DNA of 31,286 nt from Synura sp. LO234KE (taxonomy: Eukaryota > Sar > Synurophyceae > Synurales > Mallomonadaceae): NCBI GenBank assembly GCA_015143735.1, contig VKHC01000010.1, positions 1 through 31,286 on the forward strand, read 5' to 3'. A program made the translations under genes and the position numbers. The notes beneath the pieces were generated by a model that had not been told where the DNA came from, ran no database searches, and saw only the letters and a program-made list of their open reading frames with translations. Within the stretch, counting starts at the first letter, position 1, and each line of letters starts with the position of its first letter. Shown here one piece after another: positions 3,233-31,286 of this stretch.

Positions 3233-3435
3233 ATGGGGAATTAGTAATTAGAAATACTAATACAGCGGTTAAAAATTAAAATTAAAAAAAAAAATTAAGC
3301 AGCAGCTCAAAGAAAAATATAATATCTCTTCATTTGTCAAAATGAAAATTTTACACGTAGTTGCTGCTACAAAAAACCAGTAGAGCGCATATCGGTAACG
3401 GACTCAACGAATTACCTTAATTTTAAGCTTTGATA
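3233..3435. promoter_or_regulatory. Divergent promoter region
   Basis: 203 bp separate the start codons of the PDZ-PX-VPS9 gene (minus) and the RING gene (plus). The interval is AT-rich with an A-run near 3280-3297, so both promoters must lie here or within the 5' UTRs. No specific factor site was recognised. Confidence 0.5.
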
Positions 3436-12004: not shown

Positions 12005-12357
12005 GAAATCCAAAATAACTTGGAAATCGCTTTACAAATCGAGCACCGGTATTATTTGGAAGGCGAATAAACTCATATTTTGCAGTACTTGTCATCCTCG
12101 AAGCTGTTTCGTGTTTGTGCAACATTATTGTGCTTTCTGTGATAGAACGTGTTTAACAATTTTTTTGCAATTGTTGCTTTCCATTCGCATTTTAATTTTG
12201 TGTGATTCTCACCAAGGAAAACAGCTTTCGCAGAAAAGCTACCATTGTAAAAAGTAGGAGGGGAAATATCGCCAAAAAATTCAGTAAATATGAAATCAAT
12301 AAGAAAAATAGCTGAACCACCGCAAACACTATGCCAAGACTTTATCATCTTGGAAAC

Positions 12358-12450
12358 ACCGAGAATCATCGAGGAACGACGAGTTTATTTTCAATTAAAT
12401 TCTCGAGGCTTTGAGAGAAAGTGAAATTATAGAAAATATCTCAGCCAGGT
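12358..12450 (+). repeat. Dispersed repeat B, 5' part only
   Basis: The stretch beginning ccgagaatcatcgaggaac aligns with 19461-19550 and 20155-20240 over about 80-90 bp with moderate divergence. The downstream part of the element found at the other two loci is absent here, so this is a truncated copy. Confidence 0.6.
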
Positions 12451-12668
12451 TGATTAAGCAATGGCATCGAGGAAGTTCGTATCATTCTCGTCAACTAGCT
12501 ACATCTTCGTCATTATAGATGATTACCGAAAATCTTGATAGCAAATTAGTGTGGGTAGTAGAAAAGTCAAAAATGACAAATCAAAACGAGGGGAAAAACC
12601 CGCACCCCCACCTAAAGAACCACTCCCCTAGGTACCAAATGGCAAGTCCCGTGGCCGAGTGGGGAGAT

Positions 12669-12686
12669 CCAGGTGAATTCACCTGG
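12669..12686. repeat. 18-bp perfect palindrome
   Basis: CCAGGTGAATTCACCTGG equals its own reverse complement. It lies in a GC-richer block that has an inverted, diverged relative at about 25.56-25.72 kb. Confidence 0.9.
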
Positions 12687-13891
12687 AGTGCCTATGTTAG
12701 AATGCAACGACGTCCCCAACTAGGTGGAAGGGGACGCGTGCACCCCCGGTCAACGGTGTTGCCAATGGGGGCAAGATGGATACTAAAGAGAGGAGGCGTA
12801 GGCTATCCGGGAGCATATCAAGAGCAGGGATGGGGTGCGCAAGAGGATAAAAAACAGAGAACCTCTGAGAGAAGAGTGAAACTTCTCGCGCGTTGATACG
12901 ACCAGGGGAGATGTCATGAGAAACCCTTCGCAAAAAAGAAGACCACCACTTAAAGCGGGACCACTGGGGTAAGCAGAAAATGCTAAAAATTCAAAAATTA
13001 CCTAAATCCTCTTCCTCACCAGGCAACGACGTCAGGGGCGAATCCAAGCATGCAAAAGAGTCCCTGTGATGCAGTTTCTCCGCTAAAGCAGAGTGTTTCG
13101 TAAGAGTAAGAGGCGGAGTCGCCACTGGTGCCGAGGCCTCCAGTGAGGGTTCTTTAATATCCGAGAGCTTGTTCCCAAAGTTTATCCACTCCTCATCCAC
13201 CGCAGTCTGAAGGTACGACCACAATGAGTCGATGGTCGAGGCCAGGGGTCGGGTTATCCAATGTCCTCTAAAGTATCTTCGATACTATTCAATTGGTCGA
13301 GGGTAAAGAAGCCCAAAAGTCCGCGGAAGCGCTTCGTAGCATCCACGGCGATGGCGTGGAGACGGGGGAGCCATGCTTCGCTCGTTGGGCAACTTTTGAT
13401 GTAAAGATGAGCGGTGCATGTACTTGACTCACGTGGTTTAACAGAGACGCTGGGCATATCCGTATCTCAACACTTAGCCAGTCCTCTTGCAAAGCGAAGA
13501 TTGTCGTCTCCACTCGAAAGAAGAAGCGGCATCGCCAGCCTCCATGGCCGTAGAAGACTTCGTCGCGAAGGTGTTCCTCGGCTTCATATTGCTGGGATAA
13601 ACGAAGCTGTGTAACATCTTTAACTTGAAGTAGACCGAAGAGTTTCTTCAAAAGTTCAGGTGCTCTTCCATCCATTACGGTGATCCGATTAAGCATTTAG
13701 ATATGGGAATTGCGACAAAATTGCTCTTCATCGTTCCCCAGTTCCTCCAGATGAGCTATCCAGGGATTGGACTGCTGTCTTTGAGGTGCGCCATATCATC
13801 TTCAATTGCAAGCTGCGTGTCCCGTACCAAACTGGCAGCTCTCTCATAATCAGTGGGACGTTCTGAGTGTCCGTCAACACCAAAAAGACAG

Positions 13892-14180
13892 TGTGGATTG
13901 AAGCAAGAAGATTTCTTATGACGCATTTCCGGACGTTTTGCAGCTTCGGCAGTTTTCCCAAATGCGAAGATGCTATACGAGCTGCTGCGCTGCGAGATTT
14001 GCTGGAAAAAATTATTTTCGGGAAAAGTAAATATTGAATCCCGATCTGGAAGGAGGCAGGGAGGATTAAGGCAAGGAACTTTCTTATGATGCAATTCCGG
14101 AAGTTTCGCAGCTTCAGCAGTTTTCCCAAATGCGAAAAGTCCATACGAGCTGCTGCGCTGCGAAATTGATGATTCGGCAT
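13892..14180 (-). repeat. 168-bp (56-codon) in-frame tandem duplication
   Basis: Two units about 168 bp apart (anchors at 13913 and 14081; 13981 and 14149) encode ISQRSSSY[G/S][L/I]FAFGKTAEAAK, PE[L/M]xHKK and a CxNPxCL pattern. The spacing is a multiple of three and the frame is kept in both units, which supports past selection as protein. Confidence 0.85.
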
Positions 14181-14530
14181 CAGAGCGATTTTGCGACAAA
14201 TTTAGGTCCGGGGTTAAATCTTCTTGCGCGCCAAATCTAAATTGGGGCGCTGCTAAATTAGATAGTGGGAAATGAGATAGGAGGTTGGCACCAAATCAAC
14301 TCTGCGAAGAATTTAGGGCTGGAGTTAATGGCGGGTGTGCTCCAAACCTAAATCCTTGCGCAGAGTATGCTGGCGCACAATCCAGTTGAATGCTAGTCGG
14401 CGCTGGTATAAAGGCACAGGAAGCATCGGCGCTGCAACCAATACTAGAAGGAGAGAAAATGGGGCGAGACCCAGATGCGACCCTCGAGTAACTGTGATAT
14501 TCTGCTCTGAAAGAGGCAGATGTGGACGAA

Positions 14531-14780
14531 CCAAAGCCCTGTATCGGTAATATTGATACTCTGCCTCATCATCTTCAGCTTCCGACGCTGAGGAGAATTG
14601 AGAGACTAAGTAACTGTTGCCAGGGCAGATTTGCGAATTTGTCACGGTCGGGGTTATTCCCGCATAAGCCAGAGCCCTGTCTCGGTAATATTGATACTCT
14701 TCGTCATCGGCAGCGTTTGATGCTGAGGAGAATTGAAAGACTGAGTGGCTGTTGCAAATGGCCCATAATGACTTAAGAGC
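14531..14780 (-). repeat. 138-bp (46-codon) in-frame tandem duplication
   Basis: Units starting at 14531 and 14669 (offset 138 bp) both encode QFSSAS[N/E]A and EYQYYR[D/Y]RAL on the minus strand. Frame is conserved between units. It is a different unit from the 56-codon repeat in the same gene. Confidence 0.85.
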
Positions 14781-15350
14781 ATGATCGGGCGCAGCAGTTG
14801 TAGATTCTTCCTGTTGTATTGCTTTGCCTTCAGGAGTCGTTTGCAAAGGTTCCACGACTGGGTCTGAAGATTCCGCAATAACCCTTTGAAGGTATTGCTG
14901 AGACATCACATCGCCTTCGTCAATATTGTTACACATAATATGACTAGTTAAGTTAGGGTCCCGAAACCTAAACACTTGCTCATATTGCTTGCGATAAAAA
15001 TTTAGGTTCTGGGTGATGAATTCGTTTTCACCGAAATTTGAAATTTTATCCCTTTCGGGGTTGACCTGGCTCACATCATTAGACCAAGCTCTAGAAAAAC
15101 CTGAATTTCCATCTGCAGACAAGTTAACCGAATGTTGTTACACTGGATGTTCTGGTTGGTTTCGAGTTGCACTTTCCACAAATTTTAAATGTGACGATTT
15201 TCGCATCTTTGGCGACCGAAATTTTAAGGACTAAAATACAACAAAATAAGTACCTTATATGCAAATTCTGAGTCGAAACCTCTCAGAACTGGAGTAGAAA
15301 AAATTGTTTAAAAAGCTGGTGTCAAAACCGCCACACGTTTTTAAAACAAT

Positions 15351-15600
15351 TAAAGTCTGTTTTGTAGAAAAACAGGAAAAATGTGAAAAAACAGGGGAAA
15401 AAAGGGTTTCGTATAGGTATCTTTTGAACGGCGTCGATTTATGAAGAGATCAAGGGTGATTCTTAAAGGTCTAATCATGGGCTATCTAACGACTACTACT
15501 TTGTCAAATAATATGAGGTTTTGCAAAAGATACAAGAGTTTTTAAAAATTGCAAAAACAGGAATTGATTTCTCCTGTTTTTCTACACAACAGACTTTTAT
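15351..15600. mobile_element. MITE-like element with about 31-bp terminal inverted repeats
   Basis: The left end (taaagtctgttttgtagaaa and on) is matched in reverse complement by the right end at about 15568-15600 with about two mismatches over 31 bp. The 250-bp unit contains no transposase frame, so it would be a non-autonomous element. A target-site duplication is not clear; TTA/TA is possible. Confidence 0.75.
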
Positions 15601-15755
15601 TATAAATGATTAGATCATCAGCAGTTAAATCTCCAGCAAATGCAACTCTTATAACCATATCATTTTCCTCCGATTCTACCATTTTCACGCTACAATTTTC
15701 TACTGCCACAAAGTTATCTTCATCATTATGCCCAAAATTTCTTCATTCTGCTTCA
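15540..15755 (-). other. Exon-like open frame upstream of copy I
   Basis: On the minus strand a frame without ATG, from after a TGA to a TAA, contains RNFGHNDEDNFVAVEN and VIRVAFAGDLTADDLI and then reads across the right arm of the MITE. Its composition looks coding. It may be an upstream exon of the decayed minus-strand gene, broken by the element. No splice site could be proved. Confidence 0.35.
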
Positions 15756-15931
15756 GACCTCGTCAACTTTGTACATTTTGCACTTACATTATGCATCGTA
15801 AAATTTTCTTACTTCCGGTGAAAGATTTTGTGTCAATGTCATAAACGCAAGTATAAACCGTTTTTCACGTTTTAGAATACAGTGAAAATTCTATATTCGG
15901 TTACTCTTGACCGTGTCTGTTTAGAAAGTAC

Positions 15932-16080
15932 TCTATTTACGGTCTTCTATAGAGTTTTTTCTTCGGGGTCGATTCTAAAGAGCCGCATTTAGTGCATCGA
16001 TTTTGCAGTAGAATCAATGCAGTCTATGACAAGCATTCCATCTTAGGCTTTGGATGTGTGAAATATCAGATCGTTTTCTT
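15932..16080 (+). repeat. Dispersed repeats A (copy 2) and B (3' part)
   Basis: 15932-16001 matches the start of the window. 16005-16080 (tagaatcaatgcagtctatg, acaagcattccatc) matches about 19608-19665 and 20300-20355. Here the two blocks adjoin, so A and B probably belong to one longer element. Confidence 0.65.
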
Positions 16081-16303
16081 GAAAGCCAAGAGAAGCACAG
16101 GAAAATGAATTTATCATTTGAGAAAGGAGATTATAAAACGGGGCACCAAAGAAATTATTGTACCAAACATCAGATGCATATCACGGAAAAACATGCGAGG
16201 CAATTCATTTTTTTCCGAAAAATTAAATTACCAACCAACTTTGCACATAGAGTAATTTAGCTGAAACAAATCGAGAAGTTGATCGCTAGAATAGAAAAAT
16301 TTA

Positions 16304-18502
16304 ATGCATGAATTCTCCATAAATGTCAAATTCAAAAAAGTTGTTTTCAGCGGATGCACTTTTTGCAAAGACAACGATCCAAAAGCTATACTGAAATCAA
16401 TGCTCACAGCAGAAGCTTTCAAGACATTCAACTCTGTCCCTCTACACAAACTTTACTCGGCAGTAGACGGCGTCTGTATTGAGAAATTTAATCAAAAAAG
16501 AAGCATCGGTAGATAATACTCGAGTAAAACATTCTTAAGTGTTAAATACTATTGCAAGACAAACAGACAACCTATTTAAATTTACAATTCAGTAGTCAGT
16601 TCATAATGCATATTCAAATCCTCGTCAAAGTCAATCAAAATTCTTCAATTTGCCAATAAATATATATTGTGTTTCTATCTTGAAATCGTGCGCTTCAATA
16701 AACCGTCAAACACTAGTAATCATCGCAAGATACAAGTTTGTGTTCATGCATATATAATCCTTTAGTACTCTCGATGATAGTGGATGCCATATTAAGATTT
16801 CAACATGCGTTAAAGCAATCCCTATTTCTAGAATCGGGTTTGAATTAAGATATTGTGCACTCAGCTTCCTCTCCGATATCCATACTGTATATGTCAGTTA
16901 TGACAAATATCCAAAGGGCAACCAGAAGACTCTGAATTCTTATATTTAAGAAACCATTTGTTCTCCCATGGCCATCTTCAGGTCGCTCTCTACAGAGTTC
17001 AAGATGCGTCCAAGATCTCTAAATTTATGAAGAAACATCTACAGTACTAGAACCATTGAGGGAATCAGTTGAAATCGCTACCAATATTATATACCCAGAG
17101 TTATTCCAGTCAGTCAGTTGAAAACATCAAAACTACTAATTAAATGGATACAGATACATTGAATTTAATGGTATTCGACTCCCAGCATTCGCAGTTGCAA
17201 CTGATATTGAACGGTCTCGCCTGCCTTTAGACGAAGCTAGAGGACGTGATGGAAAACAGTAAAATAATTTGCCACTTACATTTGTAGCACCATTCGCGAG
17301 CATTTAAGAAATAAATAAATTCCCCAGTGATTCATGTTTGTGCCGCAGCTACTTCAACACAGTTTGGCTCGGTAGGTCTTACTTTTGCTTCCTCGGTGAT
17401 CACGGGGTTCCGTATTTATTATAAAACAGCGAAAAGGATAAATGCGGTACCATGATAGAAAATTTCTCATGATAATTTTTTTATCATATTCATGATAAAT
17501 CACGGTGAAGTCGATTTTCAAGATGATATGTTACGGTATCATGAAAATTTTTTTTAATGATGGTATGATTGTTCAACTTCTCCCCGCTACAAACCACTGT
17601 TCCTCAACTAAACTCAAAATCAGTTTCTGAGGTACCAATTTCTGTCATATGTAGTTGACTAGAGTTAGGTACGATGGCAAAAATGCAGTTCGTCTCTCGT
17701 ATGAGCAGACAAATTTCTCAGCAGCAAATATATTTCAACAAAAGTAAACTAACAGATTACGTAAGTTCCGTCGCGTATCTACTATGACATGCGGTCACCA
17801 CCACAACAGATAGGCGTTGAAATTCAGGCCAATTTGAAAGTGGGACATAAACAGCAAAAACAGGATATTTCAAGAATTAATCAAGGACAGCAGGTAAAAC
17901 AAAGTGTTTACTAGGTCAAGTAAAATTACTAGTAACCACGATTACAGAAATAGCAAGAGAAAACAACTTTGAGCTTCCTAGTTTTGAAATGGCAAAATCA
18001 AGTAGATCGACATTTACAGATCTCAAGAGAAATACGAAGAGACAGCTCAACTCCTTGGAAGATTGAATTTTAAATGACCTGTAAGTTGATTTACCAAATT
18101 ATTTAAACTCAAATAACCTTCTCTTGTGAAGAAAGTTGTGAATTTTCGCCTCTTAAATCTCCCAAGAAGTTGATTTCGACAAAGACGGCACTAAATCAGG
18201 TAAATCTTTGAAATAATTAATCTGTCTGCAGTTTAAATCAACTTCCACTTATTTTATTTGAGCCTAGTCAGTCTTGCAATATCAGGGGAAACATTTTACC
18301 CAACTTCGTATCTCGTTCTAGTCCCAGAAACGCTTGAAGGTATATTAATTTGAAATAATGAACAATCACCTAATAACGGATTTCTGCTCAAAATTCTCTC
18401 GCCTCCTGTTGTATCTGCTCTCCAGTACTGTTTTCAAAGATTGGCTTCCGGACCCTTCAAACCACATCGATCAGCAGATTTAGCTAGCTCCCTCCATTCA
18501 AG
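16304..18502 (+). pseudogene. Multi-exon gene of unknown function with two in-frame stops
   Basis: Chain of small exons with matching phases: 16766-16886, 16982-17043, 17154-17258, 17349-17371, 17663-17760, 17810-17903, 17948-18080, 18136-18199, 18268-18339, 18426-18502. Pieces of the product are FELRYCALSFLSDIHT, VALYRVQDASKISKFMKKH, IEFNGIRLPAFAVATDIER, FVSRMSRQISQQQIYFNKSK, ANLKVGHKQQKQDISRINQ and RENNFELPSFEMAKSSRS. A likely first exon, 16304-16508, starts with ATG and contains LTAEAFKTFNSVPLHKLYS; its link to 16766 is unresolved because the phases differ. The frame passes through TGA at 18064-18066 and TAG at 18319-18321 and then stays coding-like, so either the gene is a pseudogene or the true end is 18066. 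The final donor at 18503 leads to no recognisable exon. No domain recognised. Confidence 0.5.
17444..17571. mobile_element. Inverted-repeat insertion inside an intron
   Basis: The 291-bp intron between 17371 and 17663 is several times longer than its neighbours. It holds AT-rich arms, ggtaccatgatagaaaattt at the left and the reverse complement of about the same sequence at the right (aattttttttaatgatggta). This is consistent with a short MITE-like insertion. Confidence 0.5.
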
Positions 18503-19400
18503 GTAAGCGCACGAGCACCTCATTCACGTCACATATAAGCCACCAAGCGCTCACATAACGTCAATCTCGCGTCAGGACGCCCAGGAAAGCTCCTGCCATA
18601 AGCTGGTAGACGCCGCTCCCCGCTACGTATCTTTAACACTATGGCACCGCTCGTAGCCCTCCTGCGACGATCCTACCCATCGGTGATGTTACTTCATCTC
18701 CCCTAGTGCTCCCGCGACGCTCTAGCTCACTGTCGTTGCCATAGTTTCCTGATTCCTAGCTCTAGCTTGTAGCCAGTTTCACACAACAATGAACACACGT
18801 TTCACGCCGTCCGGCAACATATATGCACCCACGTCATGTCTGTTATAATATGTCTCACAACTTCATCACAGCATATCACTGCACCACACTCAAGTCGCTT
18901 TCATATCCTCCCATGACTAATGCAAGTTAAGAAACCCTTTCTTGTCTGGATGTGTCACCTGCCTAAAACTAGCTAGAAACTTACAGTAGCGGAGATGAGG
19001 TGAGGAAGAAATGTACCGAGGGTAGTCACGCAGAATAAGAATTTAGCCGTCATTTGCGGATAGCTCCCGGTGGCGGAGTTACCCCACCTATTGAGCAGTC
19101 GACTTGTATAAGAACAGGGAAATAGGAGTGCGCACCATAGAGCGTACGTAAATAGTCTATGGCCAAAATAGCCAGTACTAAATGATGAAGCTGCTTTGCT
19201 GCAACATGTTTGATCATGCTTTTAAAAATTAATCTTTTCACGAACAACCAAGGGCTGATGCACTGTCATACGCGTAGTTAGCTCTGCACTATCAATTTGT
19301 TGGCTTCTACTTGCTTTACTATGATACATTTTGCCAAATAATTGAAGAGTTCCATTTTCGATTTGCATGCTTCAAGCTTCTTTTTTAATTAATCATATTA
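18503..19400. other. Non-coding stretch
   Basis: C-rich on the plus strand from 18503 to about 18920, then AT-rich. No coding signal found. The 15-mer atcacagcatatcac near 18868 occurs inverted near 23798, hinting that a fragment of the 1.6-kb element lies here in reverse orientation. Confidence 0.35.
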
Positions 19401-19439
19401 ATGTCAATAATTCCTTTTACTCTGCGAGAATACAGCGAA

Positions 19440-19760
19440 AACTAAGAGTTTATGTAGGAAAAACCGAAAATAATTGAGGAACAACGAGTTTGTTCTCGAG
19501 TAACTTTTCGAGTCTTGCCGAGAAAATTACGAGAGAGCATCGAGATCGTTTCTGGATGATTCGAGGTACGACCAACATAAACTGGGTTTGTGAAAATAGA
19601 GTAAGCGGTAGAATCGATGCAGGCTATGACAAGCATTCCATCGTTGACTTTGGATAGGCGAAATGTACAGAAAGTACGTCTTTATTGCAAAATTACAAAC
19701 CCTCTTATGATTGTACGTATGTACAAATATGAAGATATTTCAATAAATCGAGACGGGTGT
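19440..19760 (+). repeat. Dispersed repeat B, fuller copy 1
   Basis: Shares with 20140-20440 a succession of matching blocks: gaataattgaggaac-like start, ttcgagtc, aggt(a/t)cgac.aacat.aactggg, gcggtagaat.gatgcag, tctatgacaag, and gattgtacgtatgtacaaat. Divergence is moderate and small indels are frequent. No protein-coding frame. Confidence 0.65.
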
Positions 19761-20139
19761 AGGTCGAACTATGTAATAGGTTTATGTTTACAAATAAACT
19801 GAAAAGGTCCGGTTTATCGTCAGTGAAACCGATAAATAATTGCATATAGTGGGTCCGGTTTTTCCCTTCTTTACAAACTTATATATTCACTTTGTTCTCT
19901 TGTCGAAAAGGTTAAAAAACTATTTTTCTTTAGAATTTACAAATCAAAAATATGCTTCCTTTTCTCCAAACAAATTGAACTTCACTGTTAACTTAACCTC
20001 ACAAATTTCAAAATAGTTATTAAATGCCGACATTCTTCCGTAGCAGCATTAAATGTATAAACAGATAAAAAATTCTATTTTTTAAAAAGCGTTAAAATAG
20101 TTTGTCCACGCGCATCCGAAACCGGTTACAATTTAAACG

Positions 20140-20460
20140 CTTATGTGGGAAAAATCGAGAATCATCCAGGAAAGACAAGCTTATAATCGGGTCACTTTTC
20201 GATACTTATTGAGTTTATTGCTGGAAAACAGCGAAATCTTTTAAAGTTGATTAGAGGTTCGACTAACATCAACTGGGTATATGAAAAGAGATTATGCGGT
20301 GGAATAAATGCAGTCTATGACAAGATTTTTATCTTGATATGTGGATGGGTGAAATGTGCGTTTGTCCTCTTATTGCATAATTATTATGAACCCACCTGCG
20401 ATTGTACGCATGTACAAAAATGGAGAGATTTTAAAATTTCAATTCTGGGTTTTTTATATT
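20140..20460 (+). repeat. Dispersed repeat B, fuller copy 2
   Basis: Direct, diverged copy of 19440-19760 about 700 bp downstream. It keeps the blocks aactgggtatatgaaaa, gcggtggaat, gcagtctatgacaag and gattgtacgcatgtacaaa. Short open frames over it have no recognisable product. Confidence 0.65.
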
Positions 20461-20637
20461 TCAGGCGGGTATATATTCACGCAAATTGAATTTCGAGACG
20501 AAAAATCGTGCTGCGAAATATTTTATATTCAATTTAAAACGCTTAAAATTTATATCGGTCATGGTCTGGAAGTAGATTGCGCAGTTTGGAATAAACCGGT
20601 TAGACAGATTAAATAAATTGAATTGGACTACTTTTCC

Positions 20638-22190
20638 CACTGTTGCAGCATCGCCAGCTGCATAGGATATTTTGAACTATTCTGTCCACTGCCATTTACC
20701 TACTGCACTATGCCTGCCCTTCTTGCTACTCCGTATATCGCTCGACTGCTCAGTAGGCGTTGCATCTCCACCGTCAGGAGCTATCCGTAATTAACGGTCA
20801 ATTTTGTAGGTAGTTGCGGCTATTCTCTATTCAGTTTTTGCTTTCATACGCTACACTGGTGCACACTTCAATTTTGCTTCTACTTCACTTTTCTTCTAAT
20901 AGTAAGATAGACTAGAGGCAGACTGTATACGACCATTTAAATAATCTAATTTAATTACGTATGCACGAGCGGGGTGGAGCGCCGCATTTGACATCCTTTA
21001 TGTGATGTTTAAACATGACGTGACATATGCGCCATTGTTTACAACGTGTAACGGACGTGGTCAAGACAAGCGTGCAAGGGCATGAGCTAGGAGTTGGATT
21101 TATATGGCAGATAAAGCACGGCGGGACATTGGGGGAGCTCTATGGGACTTCGAGACGTGTGATGGAGTGCTATGTTCAAGCGCAAGACGCAAGGAGTTGA
21201 AGCTTACACGGAAGGGGAGGGCGGCTTGGGCTGGTTTGAGCGGGTTGCGTCAAGAGCGTTTCAAAGCGTTCTGCGATGATCCTGACACTTCCTGAACGTT
21301 AATTGGCTATTATGAAGCATGTATATAGTGCCTGTAAAGTTACCTGGTGTGTTGGAGGTCCTACGCCGTTGCTGCTCGATGCGTCCAGGAGGGTCTGGCA
21401 GACAAAGTGATATTTGTGGGTTGGAGAGCAGATATGGCGAATGACAAATTATTTTCATGCAGAAATCGGTCATTAAGACATGATGTGCAATCGTCAAATT
21501 AAATTATCTCAAGATCTTTTGGCTGGAGCGAGTTATGGGGTGGGCCAAGAATCTGTTGTCAGGAGAGCATGATTATCTCTTCCAAAGTAAGAGACAGTTT
21601 TCAGAAAAACTAACTTAGAGCCTTATATATTGTGCCAAGAGCTTACAGACTCGAAGAATTTTTAAGTTTCGACCCTTCGGAGACGATCTGATGTTAGGCG
21701 ATTTTATTTGTCGAATTTTCCTAGTTTTTCTGTGAAGCGAGTTAAATTAAAATATTTTGGGAAATTATTTGTTGACCTAATTGAATTTCGTACCTCTAAG
21801 AAAATTTGCTACTATCTCTTCATATTTTGCGAGTTCTAAAAATGCCGTTTCTTACTGATTTTACTATTTGTATGCCAAGTTGCCACGTCTTGTAATTTCT
21901 GTGATGGGGGTTAATATCTCATTTGCATGATCTGAAATGATTTATTTTACCTGATTTTATGCATTGCTTCATGAGATATTCTATTTTGAGTTTTAGGTTG
22001 TTTGAAATTGTATTAAAACTTGAAATTTAACGCTTATCACGTCTATGTGTCCGCACGTGTGATACGCTTCGTTTGCTTATTATGTAATTAATTTAGTTGT
22101 TTTTGGTTGAAATCTGTCTTTAGGCACTGAGCCCCAATATCTGTTGTTAACGACTAAATACTGCGATTAGTTATGTTGTACCTGTACCAA
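20638..22190 (+). mobile_element. Roughly 1.6-kb dispersed element, copy 1 (ends recognised)
   Basis: The left end (cactgttgcagcatcgccag; later ctatccgtaattaacg at about 20781-20800) and right end (about 22015-22190, tcacgtct, tatgtaattaattta) recur in the same order and similar spacing at 23298 and 24727-24890. The interior is poorly conserved and shows no transposase frame. Best read as a degenerate non-autonomous element. Confidence 0.5.
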
Positions 22191-22499
22191 GTAGTCTGCA
22201 CTTTGTTATAGCAACAAAACTCAGAAGTTGTTTCTGAGACAAGTTAGGGCGCGGTGATCAGAGAGATTAGATTGAGGTCGAACTCAATTAGTTACGAGTT
22301 GAAAACCTTACGCCGAGCATACCACATCCTAGTCCCGTGCTAGTAGTAATGGATAAACGAGTAACATGTTTCTAATAATTGTTTTAACACTGCTTTCTTA
22401 TATTAGTATGCGCCAATACAGCGATTCCCACAGCGGAACTACTACAGCCACAGCTACAGTTTCAAAACAGTACCAAAACTTATCCAAGTGTTTTACGAC

Positions 22500-23176
22500 T
22501 TGGGTTCTAATTAGTAGTTCTTCCTCGTCAAAAGTACAGGGGACAACTCCCGGCTTTTAGCTTAAGCTGCGAAATTGAAAATCGCGAACTGTAAATCGGA
22601 ATCTCCAACCTCCCTAGGATAATACTAGCCGTCAAAGAGAGAAAAATCCAAGGGTGTTTCGCAACAAGGCGAAGGTAATTTAGGCCTCCAGCGAACTCAA
22701 TTCTGTCCGAGATAATACAACTTCTTATTGTAATGGATAACCCATCCCGGACTCTCTTTCGGCCTAGCCATTTTGGGTAACAATCTAGGTTTGAAGCTCG
22801 AAGAAAATTAAGTTCGAACCTAGTTTCTTTGCAAAATTGTGCAGGAGAAAATTCTATGATAAGTCGATTATCATCGTCCACCTCTTTAAATTTTCAGTTT
22901 GGCAACAGTGTTCCAACATTTCCTTCTGCTCCCTTTTTCCATTTAATTCCGGAATCTACCAAGCCTGATGAAGTTATTTCTGCCTGTCATGGAGGTAGTC
23001 TGTACTCAGATCCCTTTATATATGTTGGCGCTGAAGGAGGAGCAGAAAATAACGATGAGCGTGCACAAATGCCCGATTTGAAGCAACTCGCCTCCCGGAC
23101 TTTATTTTATAATTGGGGGAGGACGTGTAAAATGTCAACACTCCCACGTCCGGCAATCTTGACTAATGGGTGCTAG
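22500..23176 (+). pseudogene. Decayed member of the FRFGA family (copy II)
   Basis: 22520-22840 aligns in the same strand with 30320-30640. The product reads AFSLSCEIEN, then an in-frame TAA, then ISNLPRIILAVKERKIQG, where the 30.4-kb copy has AFSVSCEMEI and FSNLFKMVTVKEKEIQG. A two-base deletion before this block breaks the frame. Downstream, from about 22784, SRFEARRKLSSNLVSLQNC runs on as an open frame to 23174 (MISRLSSSTSLNFQFGNS, later MPDLKQLASRTLFYNWGR). That region compares with the FRFGA..TPDLN..SQN..ISQRSSS order of copy I. The gene is therefore broken in its 5' half but open in its 3' half. Function unknown. Confidence 0.5.
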
Positions 23177-23297
23177 AATATATGAAAAGTGCGCCAACAA
23201 GACAATCTCAAAAATATTTTATGTAGAAGGATGCTGGCATTGCAGCTTCTACTTTCGTGTTTGATATCATATTCCATGGAGGGGAGGGGAGAGAGGG

Positions 23298-24895
23298 CAC
23301 TGTTGCAGCATAGCAGCTGCATAGGCCGCTACTGATCATTCTTCGCAGTTTCTATCGAATCCTGCTGTACTGTGCCACCCCAACCATGTAATTATCCACA
23401 TGTGTCGACTGATCAGCGGAGGGTATATCTCCACCCTCAGGATCTATCCGTAATTGACGATTACACTTATGCTAATTTGCGTACACATTTCGTAAAATGC
23501 GGTGTACTGCCTAGGTACCCTATCGGTGGATTGGTAACGGAACTATTGTTGCTGCTGGTCTATAGTGATCTTATTTGATCCCTCAAACACGGAACTTGGG
23601 TACCACTTGGCTGTGGTGCTGTGATGCATCTCCTGTGCGACACATATGTAGTCTTTTCCCTACTTTATGCTCCTAATGCTATCCTAGTTCTTGCAGCTCA
23701 AATAGGTAGAAATCATATAATGGCCTTTGAAGTTGGTATATAATATAAAGTTTATGAGGCGCACACGTCAGGGGAGGTCGATATAAAGTTTTGCGTGATA
23801 TGCTGTGATTGCGTAAACATGTTGAAATTAGGTGGAAATGAAGGGAAAGCATATGAGTGACGTGTTCGGGGGGGATACGTAAGCTGTGCATTTGAGCAGG
23901 CAGGAAACATGTTAGAAAAGAATATTTTGAGCATAGGAGGAGCGCGGGGTTACACTGCAACGATATGGCAAGATGTGCGTGTTGGGGTCAAAACAGTACT
24001 AAAATACAGTTAGGCGCTGGAGAGGTTTCAAATCATAGCATTCGACCGGCTGCCGTCTGGGGCGTTTTCGGGCCATTTGAAGGGAGCTTGACATCTGCAA
24101 AGCGTTCAAGAGGTGATTTGCAATGTGTATGAGCATATGGCAAGCTTACGTTTCGATGGTGAATATGGGTGTAACATATGTCGGTCAGCACATGACAGGG
24201 TTATAACTGCTATGGTTCTAATGAGGGTCCTATGATGCAATATAAACGTTGAGAGGTCATATCCATGCTTGGAAATGATGTTTAAATGATTTGAAATGAT
24301 GGTGGAATGGTGTACCTTAAAGAATCGCTTCAGGTGTTTCGATGGGTTTTTGGCGCTAAAAAATGCGCAGGCGCGTTTATAATATTCATCACATATCAGT
24401 TCAAGTTAAAATAAAAACTGGTTACGGAATCAAATTACGCGCACAGATATGGAGAATCCATTTGGGAAAACGTTGCTTGGTCCACATCTATCCTTCTTCC
24501 GACTCCTTGATTCTTCCACATATATTTGCTGACTCCTTGATGCTTTTGTTGTTCTTGGTTGGTCCTGGTATGATCATTTTAGCGCTGTGCAAAAAGTGAT
24601 GAAGATTGGTATCTATCGTGATTTTTGCAGTTACTGACATGGATGCTTGTGATTTGAGTCGTGTTATTTGACATTGGTCGTGTTATTTGAGTCCATGCGT
24701 TGATTAATTAAATTTGGGGGTGTTTTTACACTCAAACTTTAACATTTTCACGTCTGTATGACCCCACGTAGTTGGATACCATAAACGCATTACGTAATTA
24801 ATTTACTTCTTTGGCTATAATTGGTTTTCGGTGCTTAGACGTTTGGTTTAGTGAACGAAATTGATTGTTGGTAATCAGCAGTCATCAACTGGCTT
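23298..24895 (+). mobile_element. Roughly 1.6-kb dispersed element, copy 2 (ends recognised)
   Basis: Same end blocks as 20638-22190: cactgttgcagcatagcagc at the left, then tctccaccctcaggatctat and ccgtaatt, and ttcacgtct..tacgtaattaatttac at the right (24739-24815). Interior weakly related at best. No coding frame supported. Confidence 0.5.
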
Positions 24896-25019
24896 AGGTA
24901 TAGGGTACTTTAAGATAGTTGGAAGCTTGGAAGCGGATTCTAAGCGATATTATATCGATATTCGTGTAAGGGATTTTTCGTGGTGCCAAAGGTCAACTTA
25001 CAAATCATCACAAAGTCTA

Positions 25020-25480
25020 CCAGAGCATTCCTCAGTTCCATAGTCTTGAAGGATTGACTTTGGTACACTCCCGGAGTATTCTTGGGCGTTATTAGACTAC
25101 TTTTCTGCCCCATAAATATGGAATGTATGAAGATCTCTTCACAACCATCGGGGATCAAGACATCTGGAAAAAGGTAATCAACCCCTGATAAGCTGAACTT
25201 CTTGAAAAAGTAGAGTTAAGCATGAAGCTCTTCTTGGTCTATTTCTTTTACTCCGTCCCTCGCGCCCCTTCAACTCGCATTTCTTCGTTCGCTCGTCCGT
25301 CTACAAAGCGGTATAAACAGGCCGCACCTCCGAGAGCGCCTTAGCAAAGAGGCCCATCACGAGCGACCCCCCGAAGCTGGACCAACAGGAGGAAACGCTC
25401 GAAGAAGACGTGTACGGACCCGATCGGCGGAGCACCTTGCTTGAAGCGACCGTGGAACACGCGATTCGCTATTGTTCTTA
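25020..25480 (+). other. Exon-like fragments of an unidentified plus-strand gene
   Basis: 25114-25171 lies between a TAG acceptor and a GTAATC donor in one open phase (FLPHKYGMYEDLFTTIGDQD, then IWKK). 25320-25479 carries an open frame ending in TAG with SALAKRPITSDPPKLDQQEE and STLLEATVEHAIRYCS, preceded by a pyrimidine-rich tract. Composition is coding-like, but the fragments do not join in phase and no start was found. They could be remnants of a truncated gene. An antisense frame at 24940-25158 is an alternative reading of the first part. Confidence 0.25.
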
Positions 25481-26200
25481 GATCCATTCGCTTGTCCTCT
25501 CTTTTTCTCGCCTGGTTTCGTTCGTTGTGGTGGCCCGTCCTATGCACTTGCTGGCATCACTGGTGTTCATAGTACCCTCTTGTCGCTCCGATACTATGTG
25601 TCATGTTTCCCTCTGTGGTCCCTTGGGTGTGGTACGCGCGTATCACTCTGTCTTTTCGGGGACGTCGTCGCGTACTAACCATCTCCGTGGGAGGACTTTC
25701 CTACACTTTCTGGCGGAGGCCTCCTCCCCCTACCCACACTTGGTCAAGGGGTTCGCCAGTTGGCACATTGGGACTCCATGTTATTAGGCATGTCTATGTC
25801 GAAGGACTGGTACCTCATCATCGATAATGCCTAGTAATATAGTACCACTTAAGTTGATGAATGATTCTTTTCGGTGAACACCAAGCTATTCGCTGTCCGA
25901 GTGGTGGTACAGCAGAACATTTTACATAGCTACCACCAACATACTAGCGGCGCAGCTATAGTAACTGCCAGCTACAGAGGAACCGCTATTTCCTATGGCG
26001 AATGCTTCTTGTTTCGCCAGCTGGTCTCCAATAAGAATTACTGGTAATAATCCATTCGTCCTGTTTTGAATATTTACAGAAGTAGTTTTAACAAGATGAA
26101 TACTTGGAAGCGATTCGCTCTTACTTCTTGGAAAATATCTATCTGATATTTCTCTAGTGTGGAGAAGCTCACCATGATTGACAAGATTCCAAACCACTCA
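25481..26200. other. Non-coding or unassigned stretch
   Basis: Overlapping short frames in several phases, none with recognisable motifs. The ggggacgtcgt.gc block near 25658 is shared, inverted, with about 12705-12725, marking a second copy of a small repeat. Confidence 0.35.
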
Positions 26201-26214
26201 TCAGTGGATAAAAA

Positions 26215-26440
26215 TCCATGCTATAGTGGTACCGACTCTAGTGGTACCACCCAAAGTCCACCACTAAAACCCCAGCTATAGCTGGTTGGATTTTGGATGG
26301 ACCAGCTATAGCTGGTGACCAAGGGTTTAAGGGGTCAAAAATGGAAGGTCCTGGACATTTTAGGTGAACTTTGGTGGTGGACTTTAGGTGGTTAGGTTTT
26401 GGGTGGACCGACTATAGCTGGTGGCGGCACTTATAGAGTA
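26215..26440. mobile_element. Palindrome-rich foldback element
   Basis: Contains ACCAGCTATAGCTGGT (26301-26316, perfect palindrome), the same core again at 26272-26285 and an imperfect third at about 26409-26423. Flanking arms ccacccaaagtccaccacta (about 26249-26268) and their reverse complement (about 26370-26392) make a foldback. No coding capacity. Probably a small inverted-repeat element. Confidence 0.6.
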
Positions 26441-26805
26441 CGGTGAATAAATTTTGGTACGTAGGTCGATTGTGGTGCTTTGAGGCGAACTCATTATCAT
26501 TATGAAAATAAATCAATGGCCTTACCGTCTATAAGGAGAATGCACCTAAGAGTTTATGAGAAAAACTAGTACATTTGGAGAAAAACTAGTCAAAAAGTGC
26601 AAAGTTGTAGCTGATTATATTCACTTCGTTCACAAATCTCCTTGAACAACTTACTAAACCAATAGTATGCGAAACTTTTCTAAAATATTACTGAGGTACA
26701 GGTTAACATGACACGAACAACCTTCCGTCGCCAAACACAACGCAGATAAACACTATTTAAACGACCAACAAAAAGGGTGAAGGCAGCTCACGTCGCCCTC
26801 CCCCA
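26441..26805. other. Intergenic region 3' of the DZIP1-like gene
   Basis: AT-rich DNA with no gene, repeat or RNA signal that I could support. Confidence 0.4.
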
Positions 26806-28497
26806 CTAATAGCTCTCCAGTAGCCTACCCTGAATCTCTTTAGCCAGCGCCTCAATAACTACCTCGCTGCCTCGTCCCTCCAACGCTTCCCTTCTCCGAG
26901 CCTCTGCGCGCATGCGGGCCGCCTCCATCAGCGAGGCTGCATCACCTTGCATAAGCGGGGAGCTGTACAGGGCCATAGCATCCTCCAGGAGAGAGGTGCG
27001 GCCCACCGCTGCGGCACCGCTCAAGTCCCGGGTCACGTCCCCTAAGACGACGTTGTCAGTAAGAAGAACGGGCGGGCTGGTCTCGCCTTCTGCTGGTCGA
27101 CTCAAGGCCAGAAATGACTGTGACATAGACGTGTCCCTGTCCACTCTCTCGTAAGTGTCTCCCACCCCTCGATCGGTCCGCACAACGCTGTTGTCCCTCG
27201 CCGTCTTCCTGGTGAGTGCATTGTACCGAGCCGCCTCTACGGTCGCCCGCTCCCGCTCTGAACTCAATGCGATTTGGAGCGCCCTCTCCTTGGCCCTGGA
27301 CTCCTCCAGAGCTCTGCGCCAGTCCACCTCAGCCTCGTAGCCTTCCCGATCCCGCTCTCGAGCCACCACCGATTTCCATTTGCGAAGTGCCATGCCAAGA
27401 ACGGTTATTACGTTCACCCGGACATACGCCACTACCGCGCGAACCATAGACATCTGCACCCTCCGATTCACCACAGAGGAGTTCTCAGTGGCGAGTGAAG
27501 TGGTGGATGTGGATAATGTCTGGTGCTGGAGCGAATCTGTCGCGGTGTTTATGTCCCTCGTGTGCACTCCAGCTGATAAGGTGGAATCTGTGTTCACACC
27601 GAACGACTTCTTATATTCTGTGACCGTTGGGGCCACTTTCTTATCATCCTCAGGCGTGGTGACCGCAGATGCTCTCGTAAAGTCATGTAGCATGTTCAAC
27701 CAGATCAAACGATGTTTCTCGGCTTCAACTGTGCTACTTTGTAATGTACTAGTCATCGCTTGAAGCAACATTTCCGCTTGATGCTTCCAGTCCATTTCAG
27801 TTTGCCCGAGCTTGGTCTCGTGTTGATACTGGAGGGTGTTCATCAACCGGTGCAATTCGTCCATGAAGGTTGATCTTTGATCGTCGAGGATTTCCTTCAT
27901 GAATGAACGGGTTTCCTTCTCGTGCTTTAAAACTGATTCTACTATTGGTTGGATGCCGGAGTAATTTTCGCGTACGTCTGCTTTGTTCGACTCGTTTCTG
28001 GAGTTAGGATCGTAAACCACGCGAGGACTTTGTTCATCTTTTCCCTTGATCATTATTTGATACTTTGTTAGGGATTCTCTCAACAATTTCAGCTGTTTTT
28101 GATATATCTTTACATCTTCCTTAAGCGCGACTACTTGACGCTCAAGAATTGTAGAGCTCTTAGTTAGATCGCCATTCTTCGAATAGAGATCGCGAACAAG
28201 TTTAAACTGTGATTCTTGACAAAATAGTAAATATTCCAGCAGAAGTTGCATCAATTTAACAAGTTTAGTGGTACTTTGTACAGTATTTTGTTTGACATCT
28301 TCCACTCGGTATTCGCAGAAAGTGACTGGATCCAGTATAGCCTGAAGCTCATCAATCTAAAATGGACGTTAAGATTCCGATGAACGAAAGTTTGGTATCG
28401 ACAAACTTACCCGAATATCCTCAATTACACTGGCTAAATCAATACTAGATATTAATTTCCAGTCAAGGGCTCCTACCCTTTGTCGGAAGGAGAACAT
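26806..28497 (-). CDS. DZIP1/Iguana-like ciliary basal body protein
   Basis: Two exons, 28497-28411 and 28356-26806 (stop TAG), with a 54-bp phase-0 intron (GTAAGT...TTAG), give 545 aa. The N-terminus matches the Dzip-like N-terminal domain: MFSFRQRVGALDWKLISSID, then VIEDIRIDELQAILDP, VTFCEY, and a helical LVKLMQLLLEYLLFCQE. Coiled coil follows at about residues 70-115 and again at about 345-390. DZIP1 family proteins act at the basal body and ciliary transition zone and in Hedgehog-related signalling in animals, so this gene implies a ciliated or flagellated stage. The single C2H2 zinc finger that follows the N-domain in animal DZIP1 is not visible; no Cys pair occurs in residues 80-200. 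The C-terminal half is Arg/Glu-rich and not recognised. Divergent from the GNAT gene. Confidence 0.75.
28357..28410 (-). other. Intron of the DZIP1-like gene
   Basis: 54-bp phase-0 intron, CGG|GTAAGT donor and TTTTAG|ATT acceptor on the minus strand. Splicing it joins two parts of the Dzip-like N-domain. Confidence 0.85.
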
Positions 28498-29147
28498 AAT
28501 TCAATTTAAATAATGTATGTGACATGCGTGACGTATCGTAAGGATGCAGAAATATGGAATATAATCAAGTAAGTAAATCAAAACTATCATTAGTATACAC
28601 TTGTTTTTGACTCCACTTGAGTTCCCCATTAAGCGATTTTTTAATTATTTTCTCCTCGTAATTTTTCCACTATGATGATAATGACTAATTTGTTGTTCTC
28701 TTGTAAGTGACGCGACAACTTACTGTATTCCTTCGCGGAATATATCTAACCCTAACTGAGAAATTGTTAAACTAGCAGTTTAACAGTTAGTAATGGTAGT
28801 TTTTACATATTTTTCTTGCCTTGGTAATCCCATTCCTTTGGACTGCCGAAATATGTAAAAATATGTTTGGCCTGCGACTTACAAGTTGTGCAACAATACA
28901 TTTGAGGATAGATATCAAGCCCTTGTAATATTAGGCGGTTGGGTTCGCCCCCGCATTTGCACGGATGAATACTGTCTAGGGAAAAAATGCTTCTGTCACG
29001 AGCTGAGTGGAACCATTTATCGTATTATTTCCACGGACAAATATTACGCGCCTTCAACATTTTCTACATGATTTTTTTCTGTTTGTAGGAATAACTGCAC
29101 TCATATATCTTGAATATTTGTGGGCCGAGGCGAGAGAAGGACGCACT
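28498..29147. promoter_or_regulatory. Divergent intergenic region with nested inverted repeats
   Basis: 650 bp between the start codons of the DZIP1-like (minus) and GNAT (plus) genes. Three nested inverted repeats lie within 28700-28885: cttgtaagt / acttacaag (outer), GTTAAACT-AGC-AGTTTAAC at 28766-28784, and TTTTTACATATTT / AAATATGTAAAAA at 28800-28812 and 28849-28861. They may be a small foldback element or regulatory palindromes. A possible 3' splice site (TTTGTAG) precedes 29089, so the GNAT 5' UTR may contain an intron. Confidence 0.5.
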
Positions 29148-29708
29148 ATGGCATATAAAATTCGAGTGGCAACGATATCCGATCTTGAACAAGTACTTTA
29201 CGTCTCTAATGAGGCATTCTTAGCTGACTCATTTTTCAAAAAGCCCGAATTCCACCGCAGATTTAAGTTTGATGATATTATGGCCATGTTTTCAAAAGAA
29301 AACGCATTTTTCCTTGTTGCCTATGTTGATATAAACGATCAAGTTATCGGAAGTATTTATTTGGAAATATGCACGACTCCATTTCCTACAATAAGTGGGC
29401 ATTTCTCCGCTGTTTCAGTGCTAAGCAAGTACCGCAACTTGGGAGTTGGTAGTGCCCTGGTGGAGGCCGCTGAAATGAGACTACAACGTTTTACCTCTTC
29501 GAATGATTCCTCTACCGGCCACTCAGGTCAACCTCGAAATAAAGTGATGGATATTGACGTGGTTAGCGTACGACCCGACTTGATCGAATGGTATAAGAAA
29601 AAGGGGTACGTCGTGGGGGCGGAAACGAAGCCGGCTGAATTCATTTCTAAGGTTCAACCTGAATTAGATGTTTGTTTAATTAGAATGCAAAAGTCCTTTG
29701 GTGGTTGA
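29148..29708 (+). CDS. GNAT-family N-acetyltransferase
   Basis: An intact 186-aa frame from ATG to TGA. GNAT enzymes move an acetyl group from acetyl-CoA to an amine. Visible marks: an N-terminal beta strand and helix (YKIRVATISDLEQVLYVSNE), a central beta hairpin (FFLVAYVDINDQVIGSIYLE), motif A with SKYRNLGVGSALVEAAE (residues 93-109, the R-x-x-G-x-G acetyl-CoA pyrophosphate loop), and motif B near EWYKKKGYVV (148-157). Length is usual for a single-domain GNAT. A Ser/Gly-rich insert (residues 117-130) separates motif A from the next strand. The frame is open upstream of 29148, but that part (to 29007) crosses a probable splice acceptor and is hydrophobic without homology, so I take the ATG at 29148. 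The substrate cannot be read from sequence. Confidence 0.88.
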   Translation: MAYKIRVATISDLEQVLYVSNEAFLADSFFKKPEFHRRFKFDDIMAMFSKENAFFLVAYVDINDQVIGSIYLEICTTPFPTISGHFSAVSVLSKYRNLGVGSALVEAAEMRLQRFTSSNDSSTGHSGQPRNKVMDIDVVSVRPDLIEWYKKKGYVVGAETKPAEFISKVQPELDVCLIRMQKSFGG

Positions 29709-30277
29709 TTGCCTGCCATTTAATCGCGATAATACAATGTATTTACAGTTTGAGACTATAGCTGCTGTCTTAGGCTACCGCTTGACCGTGAGAACGACGT
29801 CCTTGAGCAGCATTTTACTACTTTTCAGACTGCACTTTCACCAGCAGTTGTCAGTAGTTATGCGCTACTAGGATTGGTAACTTGAAGCGATAGACTAACC
29901 TGTAAAGGTTCATGCTTTTTTCCGATAGTACATCTAACAAATGAGGGGGTGTCTAAAGGCAGAGTATCATGGTGCTCTCTTACTCCAAACATCACCTATA
30001 GTAGCTACACATATACATTTAATATTAAAAAAAGATCAATTTTTGAGTGTGCCGTGTGCGGTTGTGTGTGCCCTCCTTTAGTAGTACACAGTAGTAGGAG
30101 GGACTAGTTAGTTATTTACCATACACCCTGTATTGCGCCGCCAGATGCTGTTTGACCATGTATTTTATTTGACGAATTCAGGGATCGGGAGTCGTAAATA
30201 TAGTAGATTTAAAATCATGTTTTGTGTGACTGTACCAAAGCATATTTAGTACTTTCCTACTCGGGTTCTGAGTAGTT
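29709..30277. other. Intergenic region 3' of the GNAT gene
   Basis: No gene, RNA or clear repeat supported. Confidence 0.4.
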
Positions 30278-31015
30278 TTGCCTCAGAATGACCTAAAGGC
30301 TTCTAGATCCAAATTATCGAAGCCTTCAAAAGCGCAGGCGACACTGCTCCCTGCTTTTAGCGTAAGCTGCGAAATGGAAATCGCGACCAGCAAAACTGGT
30401 TTCTCCAACCTATTCAAGATGGTGACCGTCAAGGAGAAAGAAATTCAAGGGTATTCTTTAAGTCGAAAGTAATCCAGACCTCGAGCCAACTTAGTCCTGT
30501 CAGAGATAAAAATTTTAGTTTTCTTGGAAAACCATCGCCGAATCTGAAGTTACGCCAATTTATTTCGCGCTGCAATTTAGGTTTGGAGCTCAAGTGCTAT
30601 CAACTCCAGACCTAAGCTTTTCGCGAAATTGGTTTGGCGTCAACTCTTCGAATTTAATCCGACAACTTTTTCTTGTCCAAATTTTCGGTTCGGTCACAGA
30701 ACTCGAGCGGACAATAAATTCAGCTACAGAAATTTTTGCAGTTATGGCGGCTGCACCAGTCTCGGGGGAGCCTCTTGAAAACTTCTTCGAGTCTAAATTT
30801 TTGGTTGAAGACGATATCTCTGAAAAGCACGGACTAATTCTGATTTCGCTAAATGTTCAGGCACATCGAGAACAGCCAGACTCTTTTAAATCGGCATATA
30901 GAAGAAGAGACCCTCTAGAAAATTCAGGGAGTATCGCTTTCTCCGTTGGAAGAAGCCTGGTCTGCCATCTCTAAAGTGGAACAATTGACTGAAACATTTC
31001 TTTCCGTGTTGTGAA
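30278..31015 (+). CDS. FRFGA-family gene, best preserved copy (copy III), model incomplete
   Basis: Two open blocks. The first (about 30290-30472) encodes AFSVSCEMEIATSKTGFSN and VTVKEKEIQGYSLSRK and ends at a GTAATC donor-like site. The second is open from about 30524, after an ATTTTAG acceptor, to 30974: ALQFRFGAQVLSTPDLSFSR, NWFGVNSS, later FFESKFLVEDDISEKHG. An in-phase alternative tail, GVSLSPLEEAWSAISKVEQL, runs to TGA at about 31013 if an acceptor ending at 30929 is used. No ATG starts the first block, so a 5' exon is missing or lost. The phases of the two blocks (2, then 0) do not fit with the simplest sites, so the join is unresolved. Homology to copies I and II on the same reading frame is the main evidence that it codes. 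Function unknown. Confidence 0.42.
30548..30642. repeat. Imperfect inverted repeat over the FRFGA block
   Basis: Left arm gtt-acgccaatttatttcgcg and ttaggtttggag; the right arm, reverse-complemented, reads gttgacgccaaaccaatttc and ttaggtctggag. Equivalent hairpins lie at 22785-22823 (ctaggtttgaa / ttcgaacctag) and about 14308-14352. The fold is thus a shared property of the family's coding block. Confidence 0.65.
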
Positions 31016-31286
31016 TTCCGAAAGTAACTCCAATGGGCCTCTCACAGCAATTAGATCTTCAACGCGAGTTGTCCCTGAAAATGTTGTATGTTCAGGGAGG
31101 ATATCACTCCAACGATCTCTACTTAGACGCGCGCACCACAAAGCTAGTAATTCGGGTTTGTCCAGCAGCCTAGCTCGAACGTACTCGACGTGAACGTTCA
31201 GCTCAAATTTTTGCTTAAACGAGACACTCACTGTCTCGGAGCGTCGGGCGTTGTTGCCAATCTTGTTTCAACACGCCAGCAATCAG
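30971..31286 (-). CDS. 3' end of an unidentified gene, cut by the window edge
   Basis: Minus-strand frame from an in-frame TGA near 31269 to TAG at 30973-30971. It contains FKQKFELNVHVEYVRARLLD, KPELLALWCARLSRDRWSDI and GPLELLSEFTTRK. Rich in Leu, Trp and Arg with alternating helix-like pattern, it looks coding. A possible acceptor (AACAAG) lies just after the TGA, so this would be the last exon. It overlaps the putative end of copy III on the other strand; one of the two models may be wrong. No family recognised. Confidence 0.35.

Follow-up and report, generated by a model that had tools for sequence, protein, structure and literature searches.

A dispersed, protein-coding and probably LINE-dependent retroposon family in Synura sp. 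LO234KE

The window, meaning the whole stretch of DNA that we analysed, comprises 31,286 nucleotides of contig VKHC01000010.1 from Synura sp. LO234KE (C10 among the 549 contigs of an 8.09 Mb assembly, GCA_015143735.1). It contains three related sequences, copies I, II and III, which a preliminary description had read as members of a dispersed, fast-turnover, lineage-specific gene family. The relatedness of the three copies is real, and they form part of one dispersed family. The loci proposed for them (13.0-15.1, 22.5-23.2 and 30.3-31.0 kb) stand, and we correct their bounds to 12526-15348, about 22458 to at least 23261, and 30205-31286. Coding pieces of all three were found with A3, a profile of family proteins. 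The parts of the copies are as follows (aa, amino acids; LINE, long interspersed nuclear element; MITE, miniature inverted-repeat transposable element).

12526-15348, minus strand: copy I, a whole element of 2823 bp with broken open reading frames, defined by both termini and DNA matches
15334-15348, minus strand: 5' terminus of copy I, TGTTTTAAAAACGTG, by motif match
ending at 12526, minus strand: 3' terminus of copy I, GATTTTCGG, from the DNA
14328-15137, minus strand: N-terminal open frame of copy I, 270 aa long and containing an internal repeat (matched by 46 metagenome proteins, best E 1.3e-119)
13759-14295, minus strand: open frame of copy I with FxFG motifs (FRFGA, FAFGK), 78% identical to protein P0032 over 172 aa; A3 4.2e-46
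13292-13696, minus strand: part of the C-terminal domain of copy I (A1 row, 75% to the C265 copy; A3 1.8e-56)
12994-13284, minus strand: end of the coding region of copy I (A3 7e-13)
12526-12740 with a conserved core at 12640-12661, minus strand: LINE-type 3' tail of copy I, from DNA matches to LINE copies on contigs C23, C87 and C347
12512-12525, minus strand: target-site duplication of copy I, 3' side, TAATCATCTATAAT, by sequence match
15599-15612, minus strand: target-site duplication of copy I, 5' side, 13 of 14 bases identical, by sequence match
15349-15598 (15348-15601 by the outer ends of its arms), no strand: nested MITE-like insertion at the 5' edge of copy I with terminal inverted repeats of about 35 nt (inverted pair I3)
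22458 to at least 23261, plus strand: copy II, decayed, a 5' part with FxFG and C-terminal remains (70% to copy III; A3 5e-6)
30205-31286, plus strand: copy III, frame-shifted and continuing past the contig end at 31286, from its 5' word and DNA matches
30205-30219, plus strand: 5' word of copy III, AGATTTAAAATCATG, a motif match with 3 mismatches
30361-30615, plus strand: open frame of copy III in the best-maintained frame (dN/dS, the ratio of nonsynonymous to synonymous change, 0.44-0.50 in that frame)
31015-31170, plus strand: remains of the C-terminal domain of copy III (A3 2.9e-13)
25619-25874 with its core at 25737-25758, plus strand: a lone 3' tail fragment of the type found in copy I, ending TTTTCGG (80% identical to the element on C102 across 150 bp)

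Copies II and III are 70% identical in DNA over 277 alignment columns (E 3.5e-25). Copies I and III share 77% over 70 bp (E 1.6e-10), 73% over 63 bp and 81% over 37 bp, a likeness that also appears as inverted pair I1 (92 nt, 72%). No direct DNA match links copies I and II at E≤0.01 (oriented copies, plus strand), and these two are joined through copy III and the protein profile. A3 matches copy I with four weaker pieces besides the two strongest listed above, copy III at 31015 and, more weakly, at 30361 (1.7e-4), and copy II at 23163, the last two copies on the plus strand. The F-R-F-G-A piece of copy III sits in a third frame, hence we call this copy frame-shifted. The 5' end of copy II was placed by eye, and no tail was seen within 22458-23261; in a single comparison 16 of 29 aa of this copy are identical to protein P0017 (E 1e-6).

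Beyond the window, copy I is 80-91% identical in DNA to sequences on C235, C102 and C265, and copy III is 72% identical to C102 over 991 columns and 71% to C546 over 1029. Each copy has many relatives in the assembly: at least 43 match rows for copy I (36 of 36 candidates scored), at least 43 for copy II (40 of 43) and at least 42 for copy III (40 of 133), counts that are lower bounds and include the window itself. These copies begin alike. By eye, 28 of 30 type-III rows have AGTTTTAAAAACGTG or a variant of it at or near one position (the exceptions are L023 and L029), as do 4 of 6 type-I rows (exceptions L006 and L002), and the flanks preceding this common start differ among copies. A 15-base 5' motif occurs with at most one mismatch at 44 + 45 = 89 places, compared to 3 + 0 for the reversed pattern. 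On contigs C77, C317 and C350 the motif lies at bases 60-74, as if the assembly had broken at nearly identical, perhaps young, copies.

The copies also end alike. The 3' end is GATTTTCGG or close to it in 7 of 9 printed tails (L035 is cut off and L032 is ambiguous). To the 5' flanks of 24 loci we matched the downstream sequence by script, with 240 swapped-flank controls. In five loci the repeated flank stands at the 3' terminus as a target-site duplication of 12-16 bp, with scores of 16 (L031), 14 (L030), 10 (L017), 9 (L015) and 8 (L011). The duplication around copy I is the sole 13/14 match on either strand of the window, where the next best reaches 12; a nested MITE-like repeat, whose arms (15348-15382 and 15567-15601) are 91% complementary, separates the copy from its 5'-side duplication. 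Between duplications, whole elements measure about 1.7-2.2 kb, including a nested element in L011, and copy I measures 2.8 kb. There are no long terminal repeats (LTRs) or terminal inverted repeats: read directly, the 3' GATTTTCGG repeats the 5' AGTTTTAAAAACGTG in neither direct nor inverted orientation. The family's frames that we scanned yield no reverse transcriptase match, and ARAGORN finds no tRNA in the window, where 7SL and 5S heads were not searched.

The reading frame is kept across the dispersed copies. We measured dN/dS along three proteins used as guides, P0047, P0032 and P0002. For P0047 (34 sequences, 540 pairs with enough codons) the pooled dN/dS is 0.43 in frame, compared to 0.94 and 1.26 when read one and two bases on, and stops make up 87 of 7984 codons in frame versus 285 and 367 of 7733 in the shifted frames. 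Values are 0.47 versus 1.07 and 0.98 for P0032, and 0.37 versus 0.96 and 1.28 for P0002, whose N-terminal half gives 0.73 (15 pairs). Across the three guides the share of stops in shifted frames is 3-14 times the in-frame share. With P0047 as guide dN/dS is below 1 in 443 of 445 usable pairs. Stop-free matches lie within open frames of 363-398 aa on C265, C153, C475, C248 and C47; the frame on C265 has 396 aa, and C102 holds one of 528 aa (stop to stop).

A second frame test uses a DNA alignment of 30 copies, which is free of any choice by protein similarity. Over 30400-30540 dN/dS is 0.44 in the best frame versus 0.78 and 1.18 in the others. The preliminary description had noted that copies II and III share AFS[L/V]SCE and VKE[R/K]xIQG. 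The DNA there is indeed conserved; that these peptides are coding is not confirmed, and their frame differs from the one shared with the metagenome proteins. In this frame dN/dS is 0.78 with 35 stops in 1325 codons over 30400-30540, compared to 0.44 and 12 in 1355 for the best-maintained frame. Over the longer stretch 30356-30540 the values are 0.68 versus 0.50, and stops alone do not part the two frames (38 of 1765 versus 46 of 1766).

The tail of the family is shared with a LINE. The Pfam profile RVT_1 gives 18 match rows in the assembly, and in two places (C23 and C347) the reverse transcriptase is followed on the same strand, at a distance of about 3.4-3.6 kb, by the tail core. The LINE copy on C23 carries RVT_1 (9.5e-9), RNase_H (1.2e-12) and Cauli_VI (6.8e-11) domains, and RVT_1 is also found in the copy on C87. 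The C23 LINE has the shared tail and ends there with GATTTTCCGG, while the C347 and C87 copies end with GATTTTCGG. By eye, C23 has the target-site duplication AAAATTGCCTTCAA at both ends. Its 5'-side AAAATTGCCTTCAA falls within the presumed endonuclease region, hence we regard this copy as truncated. In the LINE frame on C347 the eye picks out the motifs GGDFN and SDHRPI, which may be of endonuclease type; the LINE pieces tried give no Pfam match to an apurinic-type endonuclease. A LINE piece has at least 147 match rows (138 of 195 candidates scored), and the tail core itself occurs at 140 + 116 = 256 places compared to 1 + 0 for the reversed pattern. Between family elements and LINEs it is the tail that aligns, in stretches reaching 199 columns. 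What they share outside the tail is limited to short pieces and a match of 167 columns that lies past the end of the C87 LINE.

A third kind of element has the same tail. Inserted in the family copy at locus L011 is a short interspersed nuclear element (SINE) with a tRNA-Glu gene (2484-2556 of that locus); the SINE spans about 2484-2760. It would be another hitchhiker that relies on this kind of helper.

We propose, with a probability of roughly 80%, that a single non-autonomous non-LTR retroposon family, which depends on a LINE and nevertheless codes for a protein, gave rise to the three copies by insertion. Dependence on a LINE is suggested by the common ends, the duplications and the tail shared with LINE and SINE. 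The family seems to be without a copying enzyme of its own and appears to borrow one through the shared tail. Thus part of the preliminary description holds: the family is dispersed and coding, with dN/dS below 1. It is not an ordinary gene family, since the unit is a retroposon, and the supposed fast-turnover gene family is the open reading frame (ORF) of a mobile element. The mobile element that had been named as the alternative is borne out by the common ends, the target-site duplications and the LINE-type 3' tail.

Several observations weigh against this proposal. Among the closest third of pairs the median dN/dS rises to 0.58, and the pairs are not independent of each other. The shifted-frame control favours the coding frame because the stretches were picked by protein similarity. 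In the 30-copy alignment the frame of F-R-F-G-A has the fewest stops over 30540-30700 (23 of 1464), with a dN/dS of 0.75 versus 0.60 and 0.90 in the other frames, and over 30300-30360 the test does not discriminate. Many copies contain stops (at least 109 match rows, with 98 of 451 candidates scored). The duplications are uneven as well: 19 of 24 loci have none at the 3' terminus, though many of these are probably too short in sequence to reach it. Since controls score as high as 9, the duplications of L015 and L011 are within the control range and rest on position, not score; L036 (10), L023 and L025 (9 each) score as high away from any terminus. A predicted secondary structure of the tail is weakly supported. 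A four-pair stem shows weak covariation in 22 tails (0.287 versus 0.207, reached by 4 of 500 shuffles). It pairs in just 78.4% of cells, all three 3'-ward slides of the stem pair a larger share of fewer cells, and the predicted consensus fold has no pair changed on both sides.

The strongest competitor is a HAL1-type origin. An autonomous LINE subfamily could bear the FxFG protein as its ORF1, and our copies would then be deletion forms that retain only ORF1, as HAL1 is. The 3' tails common to family and LINE fit this idea, and HAL1 itself is a precedent in the portion of PMC3627910 that treats it. However, the family proteins give one marginal match on the four LINE contigs C87, C443, C347 and C23 (P0116 on C347, E 0.004), and A3 gives none at E≤1 on these contigs, in which the 5' ends of the LINEs are undelimited. 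DNA likeness to the LINEs is likewise a matter of the tail, save for the short pieces and the 167-column match described above. We consider such a subfamily possible but doubtful. Our best reading of the sequences is a LINE parasite that codes in the manner of HAL1, with a protein that would be unrelated to that of the LINE.

This protein has 46 + 90 relatives in metagenomes (135 distinct), none of which has a Pfam label, and the family's frames that were scanned give no Pfam match above the curated cut-off. Among 120 of 139 proteins FG occurs 155 times, compared to a mean of 58.4 after shuffling (maximum 79), and FxFG 43 times, compared to 3.1 (maximum 10); GLFG is absent from the same count. 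Because the proteins are homologous, a single ancestral unit that was repeated could account for the excess. The 30 longest proteins have 0-4 FxFG each, and several long proteins have none. A structural model of metagenome protein P0047 (428 aa) is of low confidence over residues 1-121 and fair confidence over about 122-245, with helices beyond. Low confidence is expected of disorder, so the FxFG arm is probably disordered. The protein would then have two parts, an arm that is disordered and enriched in FxFG, and a C-terminal domain for which no relative was recognised; fold comparison gave no meaningful match.

The enrichment of FG and FxFG could also indicate a host gene, perhaps an FG nucleoporin, that a LINE has retrocopied repeatedly into processed pseudogenes. 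Host mRNAs can be retrocopied by LINEs. However, the copies end in a LINE tail rather than poly(A) and have one common 5' terminus, the frame is maintained from one dispersed copy to another, and three family proteins scanned whole gave no match to a Pfam domain, nucleoporin domains included. We therefore regard this origin as quite unlikely. A non-coding repeat with open frames that arose by chance, which the preliminary description had put forward as its refutation, is very improbable: although all three window copies are broken and many others hold stops, dN/dS and stops are frame-specific, dN/dS is below 1 in nearly all usable pairs, and open frames reach 528 and 396 aa.

A LINE-dependent coding retroposon could persist as follows. 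The RNA of the element would be translated, and the protein, with its disordered arm and C-terminal domain, would bind its own RNA as LINE ORF1 proteins do. The LINE enzyme would recognise the shared 3' tail of this RNA and, by target-primed reverse transcription, copy the RNA into a target that has been nicked. If carriage is limited to RNAs that have a working protein, then the frame would be under selection even though the enzyme comes from elsewhere. That the protein helps the RNA encoding it is the simplest account of why an ORF would be selected in an element that has no enzyme. It is conceivable, but rather unlikely, that a LINE parasite gained a protein unrelated to any LINE protein and that the disordered, FxFG-rich arm of this protein mimics nucleoporins. 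The RNA of the element would in this way be drawn into nuclear pores or their condensates and meet the LINE enzyme at the chromatin. The family would then be a retroposon with its own nuclear-access factor, an idea drawn from motif counts.

The window holds other features. A second dispersed repeat family (D1, D2) lies at 12347-12411, 15999-16080, 19452-19680 and 20143-20371, with copies 70-78% alike. A third, short repeat (D5, inverted I2) occurs in both orientations at 19040-19102, 20742-20804 and 23405-23459. Positions 1-60 and 15930-15990 are similar by eye, with CTATTTACGG and TTCTATAGAGTTTTTTC, and are perhaps another repeat end. On the minus strand, 815-3247 contains two adjoining frames, one with a VPS9 domain (4.6e-16) and one with PDZ_6 at 1.4e-5 and a faint PX signal at 0.084, both below cut-off; we know of no common protein that combines VPS9, PDZ and PX. 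A frame at 26809-28356 (minus) has a Dzip1-like N-terminal domain (4.2e-8), from a family linked to cilia, and a frame at 29007-29705 (plus) encodes a GNAT acetyltransferase (8.1e-8).

LINE hitchhikers are usually seen as non-coding (SINEs) or as cut-down LINEs (HAL1). If our proposal is true, a hitchhiker with a protein unrelated to its helper would show that selection can maintain a gene belonging to the trans-mobilised element itself. The purpose of a non-autonomous element's protein could then be tested directly, in a setting in which the helper, a SINE and a coding parasite all bear one tail. Furthermore, metagenome gene families of unknown function, such as the 135 unlabelled proteins here, can be retroposon ORFs.

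How does the family compare with known systems? It resembles FxFG nucleoporins in having FxFG motifs in a low-confidence, disorder-like arm, and differs from them in its low number of motifs per protein and in that no nucleoporin domain was found. The role we propose for the protein is that of a LINE ORF1 product. Such first ORFs encode distinct multi-domain proteins (as stated in part of PMC3905857), whereas the family's scanned frames match no Pfam domain above the curated cut-off. Persaeus in Lepidoptera is a short, internally deleted element that is derived from a CR1 LINE and partnered with it, according to the account given in a section of PMC6740152. Persaeus arose by deletion from its partner, whereas we have seen no relation between the body of our family and its partner.

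LINE enzymes are known to recognise 3' tails, which SINEs borrow. Our family likewise appears to have borrowed a LINE-type 3' tail. To our knowledge SINEs encode no protein, whereas the family elements code and measure 1.7-2.8 kb when whole. Tail sharing between SINEs and LINEs is described in general terms in parts of PMC3747384. Hitchhikers that share a tail and hitchhikers that retain only an ORF are both already known; in the literature searched we did not find an element with a LINE tail whose protein is under selection, enriched in FxFG and without relation to the helper. HAL1 (half-L1) of mammals is non-autonomous, has long kept the coding capacity for one protein and obtains the second in trans (PMC3627910, in its passage citing Bao and Jurka 2010). 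In HAL1 the retained protein is ORF1 of the LINE itself, whereas here no convincing relation to the partner LINE frames was detected on four contigs, in which LINE 5' ends are undelimited; what both have in common is a non-autonomous element that keeps one protein.

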